Part shown: piece by piece, positions 30,917-33,682 of the stretch | Layout: the number at the start of each line of letters is the position of its first letter | How positions within the stretch are numbered: the first letter of the stretch is position 1 | DNA from: Caldithrix abyssi DSM 13497 | GTDB taxonomy: Bacteria; Calditrichota; Calditrichia; Calditrichales; Calditrichaceae | DNA length: 64,000 bases | Reading direction: 5' to 3' | NCBI RefSeq assembly: GCF_001886815.1 | Contig: NZ_CP018099.1 | Location: 4,648,501 to 4,712,500 of the forward strand | The notes under the pieces: model-generated | What the model was told of the DNA's origin: nothing | Database searches by the model: none | The model's input: the letters and a program-made list of their open reading frames with translations, nothing else | Translations under genes and position numbers: made by a program

Positions 30917-32239
30917 ATGAACAACGTTTTACTCCTTGGCGCCGGCATGGTATCTCGCCCTTTAGTTCGTTACCTGCTTGAAAAAACAAATGTTAATTTA
31001 AAAGTAGCTTCTCTTGAATTTGGCAATGTGCGGCAGTTGATAGAAAGTCATCCGCGCGCCTCTTTGCAAAAACTGGATGTGAACGATCGGCAGGCCTTGC
31101 GTCAGGTTATTTCCGAAGCGGATGTGGTTATCAGCCTTTTGCCATGGATTCACCACATGAAGGTTGCCAATCTCTGCCTGGAACTCAATAAGCATCTGGT
31201 TACCAGTTCCTATGTTAAACCGGAAATGCGGGCGCTGGATGCCGAAGTCAAAAAACGCGGTTTGATTTTTTTGAACGAGATGGGCGTCGATCCGGGCATC
31301 GATCACATGGCCGCCATGAAAGTCATCAACAATGTTAAAAATCGGGGCGGAAAGATCATCAGTTTTTACTCCTATTGTGGCGGATTGCCTGCTCCGCAAA
31401 ACAACAACAACCCGCTGGGCTACAAATTTTCCTGGAGTCCGGTTGGCGTGATGCTGGCCGCCTTAAGCTATGGTCAATATCTAAAAGACGGCAAAGTGGT
31501 TAAAGTGGCCAGCGAACAATTGTTTGAGCACTACTGGTTTTTAGATGTGCCGGGCGCAGGCACCTTTGAAGCCTACGTCAATCGAGACGCTTTGCCATAC
31601 ATGGAACTTTACGGCATTCAAGAAGCTCAATCCATGTTCCGGGGGACGCTGCGCAACGTTGGACACTGCGAAACGTGGAATTACTTCAAAAAATTGGGGC
31701 TGTTCAATCAGGAATTTAAAGTAGATTTTGCTAAAACAAGCGTCAAACAAGCCATCGCCAGATTGATTAACAGCGACGGTAAAAATCTGACAAAAGATAT
31801 CGCGAATTTCTTAAACATCCCCGAATATTCCGTAACCCTCAAAAAACTGGAATGGCTGGGCCTTTTATCCGACGAAAAACTGCCCCTTGGAGAAGCGTCC
31901 ATCTTTGACATGTTTGCCCATATTTTACAGCATAAACTGGTTTACGAAGAGGGCGAAGTGGATCTGCTTATCCAGCACCACGAATTTATCGCCGAATATC
32001 CTGACGGCAAACGAGAAAAATTAACATCAACATTGGTCGATACCGGCATCCCGCACGGCGATACCTCCATGGCGCGCACGGTTGGATTACCGGCGGCCAT
32101 TGCCACACGCCTCATCGTGGAAGGTAAAATCAATCTAAAAGGCGTGCACATTCCCGTACTGCCCGACATTTACGAACCGATTCTGGCCGAACTGGAAGCG
32201 ATGAACATTAAACTGGTTGAAAGATCAACCTGGTTATAA
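30917..32239 (+). CDS. Saccharopine dehydrogenase (glutamate-forming type)
   Basis: A 440-residue NAD(P)-dependent oxidoreductase resembling the SDH half of eukaryotic AASS and fungal Lys9. The Rossmann motif is at the N-terminus (LLGAGMVSRPLVRYL). The segments EMGVDPGIDHMAAM, SYCGGLPAP and YKFSWSPVGV are family hallmarks. It converts saccharopine to glutamate and aminoadipate semialdehyde, or runs in reverse in lysine synthesis. AAAGGA precedes the ATG. Lysine-ketoglutarate reductase follows 124 bases on, so the pathway pair is complete, but an intrinsic terminator lies between the genes. Confidence 0.88.
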   Translation: MNNVLLLGAGMVSRPLVRYLLEKTNVNLKVASLEFGNVRQLIESHPRASLQKLDVNDRQALRQVISEADVVISLLPWIHHMKVANLCLELNKHLVTSSYVKPEMRALDAEVKKRGLIFLNEMGVDPGIDHMAAMKVINNVKNRGGKIISFYSYCGGLPAPQNNNNPLGYKFSWSPVGVMLAALSYGQYLKDGKVVKVASEQLFEHYWFLDVPGAGTFEAYVNRDALPYMELYGIQEAQSMFRGTLRNVGHCETWNYFKKLGLFNQEFKVDFAKTSVKQAIARLINSDGKNLTKDIANFLNIPEYSVTLKKLEWLGLLSDEKLPLGEASIFDMFAHILQHKLVYEEGEVDLLIQHHEFIAEYPDGKREKLTSTLVDTGIPHGDTSMARTVGLPAAIATRLIVEGKINLKGVHIPVLPDIYEPILAELEAMNIKLVERSTWL

Positions 32240-32363: not shown

Positions 32364-33682
32364 ATGAAAAGCATTCTTATCCGGGCGGAGGACAAAAACA
32401 TCTATGAACGCAGAACGCCCATCGTGCCGCAAGACCTGGCGAAAATCTTAAAAAAACCCCCACCGATGCTTTCGTTGAAAAATCGGACAAACGTTTTTTT
32501 AAAGAACAGGAATATGAAGCTGTCGGCGCCAAAATTTGTCAGGGCATGGAGCCCGGAGACATTATTCTGGGCGTCAAGGAAATTCCCGTCAACAAATTAC
32601 TGTCGGACAAAGTCTATCTCTTTTTCTCCCACACCATTAAGGGCCAGAAAGACAACATGCCCATGTTGCAAAAGATCATCGACAGCAAATCAACATTAAT
32701 CGACTACGAAAGAATAACCGATGCGCAAGGGCGTCGCCTGGTCTTTTTTGGACGATTTGCCGGCGATGCGGGCGCCATCAATATTCTATGGCTCATGGGG
32801 CAAAACTGGCAGGCGCGCGAGCTACATACCCCGTTTGCCGAATGTAAACAGGCTTTGCATTATCACTCCGTTAAAGAAGCGCATGAACATGTTAAACAAA
32901 TCGGCGAAAAAATTAAACAGCAGGGGCTGCCTCAGGAAATAAATCCGCTGATTATTGGCGTGCTTGGCTACGGCAATGTTTCAAAGGGGGCGCAGTACAT
33001 CTTTGACGCTTTGCCCGTAGAACGCATCAACCCGGAACAACTAACCGAGTTTTTTAAAAAAGGAAACTTTGATGCGCACAAGGTCTATCTGACGATTTTT
33101 AAGGAAGAACACCTCGTGGAGCATAAACAGGGCAAAAGGTTTGAATTGCAAGATTACTATCAGAATCCGGGAAATTATCGCCCGGTTTTTGACCGGTATC
33201 TGCCCTACCTTTCCATCCTGGTTAACGCCATTTACTGGGAACCGCGTTATCCGCGCTTTGTGACCTGGGAATCCCTGGCGGCCTTAAAAAGCGCCGGAAA
33301 ACTCCGCCTGCAGGGCATTGCCGACATCACCTGCGATGTTAACGGTTCCATCGAATGCAATGTAAAGGCCACCGATTCCGGCAGTCCGGCGTACCTGGTT
33401 CATCCCGAAACCCGAACGGTAACGGACGGGCATATCGGCGACGGCATTGTTCTACTGGCGGTCGATAATCTGCCTGCGGAATTGCCAAACGATTCTTCAC
33501 GGTTTTTCAGCGAACAACTGTGGCCCTTTATTCCCGGAATCGTTACCGCCGATTTTGATCAGCCATTAGAAAAAAGCGGCCTGCCAGACGAAATTAAACG
33601 GGCGGTTATTGTTTACAAAGGAGAATTAACCGAAGCGTACCGCTACCTAATAGAACCCCTTGCCAGAGCGATGGGCGTCTAA
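32364..33682 (+). pseudogene. Lysine-ketoglutarate reductase, split by -1 frameshift
   Basis: This encodes the LKR (saccharopine-forming) enzyme, about 439 residues if read through. The first 31 codons (ATG at 32364 with CGGAG upstream; product begins MKSILIRAEDKNIYERRTP) are in one frame. Everything after the A7C5 run at 32450-32461 is intact in the -1 frame up to 33682, including EKSDKRFF, FFSHTIKGQKDNMP and LIDYERITD. Without a shift, translation stops at 32699 after 111 residues. The A7 run is in the right phase for A-AAA-AAA slippage, and a hairpin (32463-32486) follows 6 bases on. So this could be a sequencing error, a fresh mutation or programmed recoding. No other lesion is visible. 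Confidence 0.85.

Follow-up and report, generated by a model that had tools for sequence, protein, structure and literature searches.

The gene identified here as the lysine-ketoglutarate reductase (LKR) gene of Caldithrix abyssi very probably lacks one base in a double run of seven A and five C residues (A7C5), in an otherwise intact single reading frame. The lack is best explained as an incidental change in run length and not as a programmed signal. The window, that is, the whole stretch of 64,000 nucleotides that was analyzed, corresponds to positions 4648501-4712500 of a genome that forms one contig of 4,978,541 bp, with a G+C content of 45.3% in the 1.66 Mb sampled. The published genome of this species is 4.98 Mb with 45.1% G+C (PMC5317091). 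The broken gene spans positions 32364-33682 of the window, and the features of the locus are as follows.

30917..32239, + strand: intact saccharopine dehydrogenase (SDH) gene, the LKR partner, adjoining the LKR gene on its upstream side (Pfam PF16653 Sacchrp_dh_C, E 1.4e-81; PF03435, E 8.5e-20)
32364..32456, + strand: 5′ piece of LKR, comprising 31 codons and closing with the last base of the A run, reading MKSILIRAEDKNIYERRTPIVPQDLAKILKK and aligning to relatives without gaps
32450..32461, + strand: A7C5 double run, the site of the frame change, one base short compared with same-genus relatives
32456..33682, + strand: 3′ piece of LKR, running in the -1 frame for 408 codons with no interruption before its stop codon (AlaDh_PNT_N, E 5.4e-13; AlaDh_PNT_C, E 2.5e-05)
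32463..32486, + strand: weak hairpin CCGAT..ATCGG, -5.4 kcal/mol alone, judged incidental
32546..32548, + strand: first ATG of the downstream frame, from the list of open reading frames

The ATG codon at 32364 is preceded by a GGAG motif, and the codons read from it run into ATC TTA AAA AAA CCC. The A7 part occupies 32450-32456 and the C5 part 32457-32461. A sequence-only reading of the window had placed a change to the -1 frame at this double run, with a slippery heptamer in phase in the upstream frame. Both are real in the assembly, the heptamer being A_AAA_AAA at 32450-32456. The same reading had described the two halves of the gene as conserved up to the join and free of any further lesion, and I found the same: relatives align without gaps to the joined halves, and the -1 frame stays open from 32456 to the stop codon ending at 33682. 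The truncated product of 111 residues that it had predicted from the upstream frame was also recovered, ending at 32699. Translation starting at the ATG at 32546 would cost LKR its first 60 or so residues. As judged from its sequence, the broken gene is an LKR gene, since it encodes both the N-terminal and the C-terminal AlaDh/PNT domains and adjoins the gene of its SDH partner in an order that is kept in relatives (L002 and L003). A second LKR copy able to replace the broken one was not found among the AlaDh/PNT-N genes of the genome. The two other genes of this kind were rejected as substitutes; they have full-length frames and, from domain score and open-frame length, are probably alanine dehydrogenases.

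Is the frame break shared by relatives? A collection of genome contigs and a set of 60 related genomes were each scanned once, and together they yielded 65 homologous loci, a few loci being counted in both sets. By tblastn, more than 60 of the loci covering the junction align to the joined LKR halves in one frame across it, and none of the relatives covering the junction has a frame break there. Among the loci with an unbroken frame are those of three same-genus genomes (L039, L040, and L041). In these three, the distance from the TTA codon to the GCT codon is 18 nucleotides (six codons), leading from a conserved Leu to Ala-Phe-(Val/Ile)-Glu or an equivalent Ala-Tyr, while the distance in the window is 17 nucleotides; the gapless alignment needs 18. 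No A or C run exists at the junction in the three genomes. A locus of the same family (L049) reads ATA AAA AAA ACA at the homologous place, that is, an A8 run encoding Ile-Lys-Lys-Thr in an unbroken frame, and the window would give the same Lys-Lys-Thr if one base were added. The comparison with relatives that the sequence-only reading had proposed as a check thus came out on the side of a simple loss: the one-base difference is private to one genome and is accompanied by no other decay. The 3′ piece is 76% identical to its nearest relative. Its gene product shows no faster evolution than those of the same-genus genes, the identity to the L042 sequence being 64.6% for this genome versus 61.4% for L039 and 63.5% for L040. 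An old pseudogene under relaxed selection was therefore rejected, and a lesion that is genuine must have arisen very recently, or the gene must still be partly expressed.

The geometry at the junction had been taken as a possible sign of programmed -1 ribosomal frameshifting, in which slippage at A_AAA_AAA, stimulated by the hairpin, would set the ratio of full-length LKR. The geometry is indeed permissive. The heptamer follows the X_XXY_YYZ pattern in the upstream frame, the spacer is 6 nucleotides, both halves of the gene are intact and not relaxed, and 10% frameshifting has been measured in a reporter for seven As in this arrangement (PMC3711429). However, the run and the hairpin are ordinary for this genome. 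The hairpin, with its CCGAT/ATCGG and TTTC/GAAA stems, does fold in isolation as had been claimed, but its stability does not stand out from chance in context: z is -0.99 in a 40-nucleotide context and -0.05 in a 64-nucleotide context, where a different fold wins. Of random coding windows, 42% fold at least as stably as the LKR site. Intact genes of the same genome contain 221 runs of seven or more As in 392 kb, 90 of which are phase-correct for A_AAA_AAA. Among the 82 testable phase-correct runs, 25 are followed by a 40-nucleotide fold at least as stable as that of LKR, so that dozens of intact genes share the LKR geometry. The three same-genus genomes lack both the outer stem of the hairpin and the run, and neither a break nor a slippery site in a broken frame is conserved among the relatives. 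I know of no use for the 111-residue product. Programmed frameshifting is thus highly improbable, and the claim that recoding and error or mutation are equally possible holds for its second half only; an error or a fresh mutation is supported, while programmed recoding is not.

The phase of the heptamer is not independent evidence, because, where an in-frame Lys-Lys pair follows a codon whose last base is A, losing one A leaves a run that is phase-correct by construction. A reversible on/off switch of lysine degradation through changes in run length is the least credible of the explanations considered. A double homopolymer can change its length and the LKR gene is otherwise intact, but A7C5 is short for a contingency tract, A runs of seven or more are as frequent in ordinary genes as counted above, and no relative keeps the run at this site in a manner supporting selection for switching.

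It was also considered whether RNA polymerase slips on A7C5 and gives some of the transcripts an extra base, which would restore the frame. Slippage is known to occur at long A runs and at combined runs (PMC3711429, PMC5009743). On the other hand, the known strong sites consist of at least eight or nine identical bases, and a T5C5 run needs a special context to slip and gives deletions, not insertions (PMC5009743). A programmed site would be a conserved run of at least 8-9 identical bases or a conserved double run in a stimulatory context, whereas A7C5 is not conserved, and this explanation is as improbable as ribosomal frameshifting. What lends it some plausibility in this organism is the dnaX gene. 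Recoding of dnaX into tau and gamma products occurs at A-rich runs, namely, A_AAA_AAG in E. coli and A9 in Thermus. The dnaX gene of this genome (L111, G000:C1:3893440-3894504 and downstream) has, past its conserved N-terminal part, an A10 run that is in phase, and in the -1 frame a stop codon follows within two codons. An in-phase A10 run (A9 in L206) was found in nearly all other Calditrichota dnaX genes reaching this region (L196-L212), and it looks like a phylum-wide tau/gamma slippage site, to judge from these sequences. In the L199 and L206 dnaX genes, the zero frame stops directly after the run and reading goes on in the -1 frame, so the arrangement seems to be reversed there. The LKR and dnaX genes are alike in having an in-phase A run inside a coding gene. 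Unlike the dnaX run, which is conserved between genera (A10 in most of the Calditrichota genomes examined), the LKR run is not conserved.

The LKR heptamer is of the same type as the A-rich heptamers used for -1 frameshifting by insertion sequences, although LKR is not a mobile element, and the look-alike insertion-sequence copy in this genome is itself a case of A8-to-A7 loss. When 464 kb were scanned for frame switches, an insertion-sequence transposase was flagged, with its break at GAA AAA AAG. This insertion sequence has 14 full-length or nearly full-length copies in the chromosome. The flagged copy (L119, G000:C1:4473200-4475000) has A7, whereas in the other 13 copies (L120-L132) the run is A8 and the frame stays open for at least 584 codons. 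L119 is otherwise identical to three of the A8 copies over 1801 bases. The loss of an A breaks its transposase at an apparent A_AAA_AAG, and the transposase at 4474.6 kb was rejected as a genuine programmed frameshift on the evidence of its 13 sister copies. The same kind of loss has thus happened, or was introduced, twice in this chromosome. A further copy of the insertion sequence, at G000:C1:4870480-4872145 (L133 and L134), gave two separate matches, to query 667-1801 and to query 1-531, so that about 135 internal bases are missing or changed.

No other clear internal frame break was found in a host gene in the 1.66 Mb scanned, at a sensitivity of about 50% (the scan picked up 71 of 142 simulated deletions). 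Inspection covered the seven listed switches that raised most suspicion, and these resemble ordinary ends or overlaps of genes; the others on the list lie near the stop codon of the upstream frame. The scan is blind to the LKR break because the 5′ piece is only 93 nucleotides long. Such losses are thus rare in the assembly, a handful per genome.

Was the base lost in the assembly or in the cell? A residual homopolymer error of the 454 type, present in the assembly only, has a somewhat better than even chance of being the cause. That slippage very recently produced a genuine mutation in the culture that was sequenced is a serious possibility of smaller weight, and some form of recoding or switching at LKR is, all forms taken together, unlikely. 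The weak point of 454 sequencing is homopolymer length. The published Caldithrix abyssi genome combines 454 data at 30.6x with Illumina data at 81.5x (PMC5317091), and in a survey of 1106 prokaryote genomes, unclustered frame breaks with BLASTp confirmation were expected to be sequencing errors and not genuine indels (PMC3711429). The LKR break resembles such singleton breaks, being a one-base run loss in a single genome with conserved sequence on both flanks. Within the insertion sequence, short-read polishing is ambiguous, I infer. Against an error at LKR stands the uniqueness of its sequence, for at such places polishing with Illumina reads should remove most 454 errors; a fresh mutation therefore keeps real weight. 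The lack of other clear host-gene breaks likewise shows that errors of this kind do not abound in the assembly. On balance, a residual error is somewhat more likely at LKR than a recent indel. Given a genuine loss, translation would mostly stop at 111 residues, and unprogrammed slippage on A7 would probably still yield some full-length enzyme; the 10% frameshifting on seven As in the reporter makes some leak plausible without any program.

As a methodological lesson, phase alone is no evidence of programmed frameshifting, since a one-A loss in a Lys-Lys run often yields a slippery heptamer, and the insertion-sequence copies provide a clean example of a phase-correct heptamer arising in this way. 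For C. abyssi, the meaning depends on the origin of the loss. If it is an error, the LKR gene should not carry a pseudogene annotation. If it is real, lysine breakdown through the saccharopine route would be impaired in the strain that was sequenced. It is very unlikely that the lesion is both real and fixed in the species, with slippage on A7C5 giving enough full-length LKR to maintain selection on the gene; were this true, a free-living thermophile would be using recoding to correct a metabolic gene.
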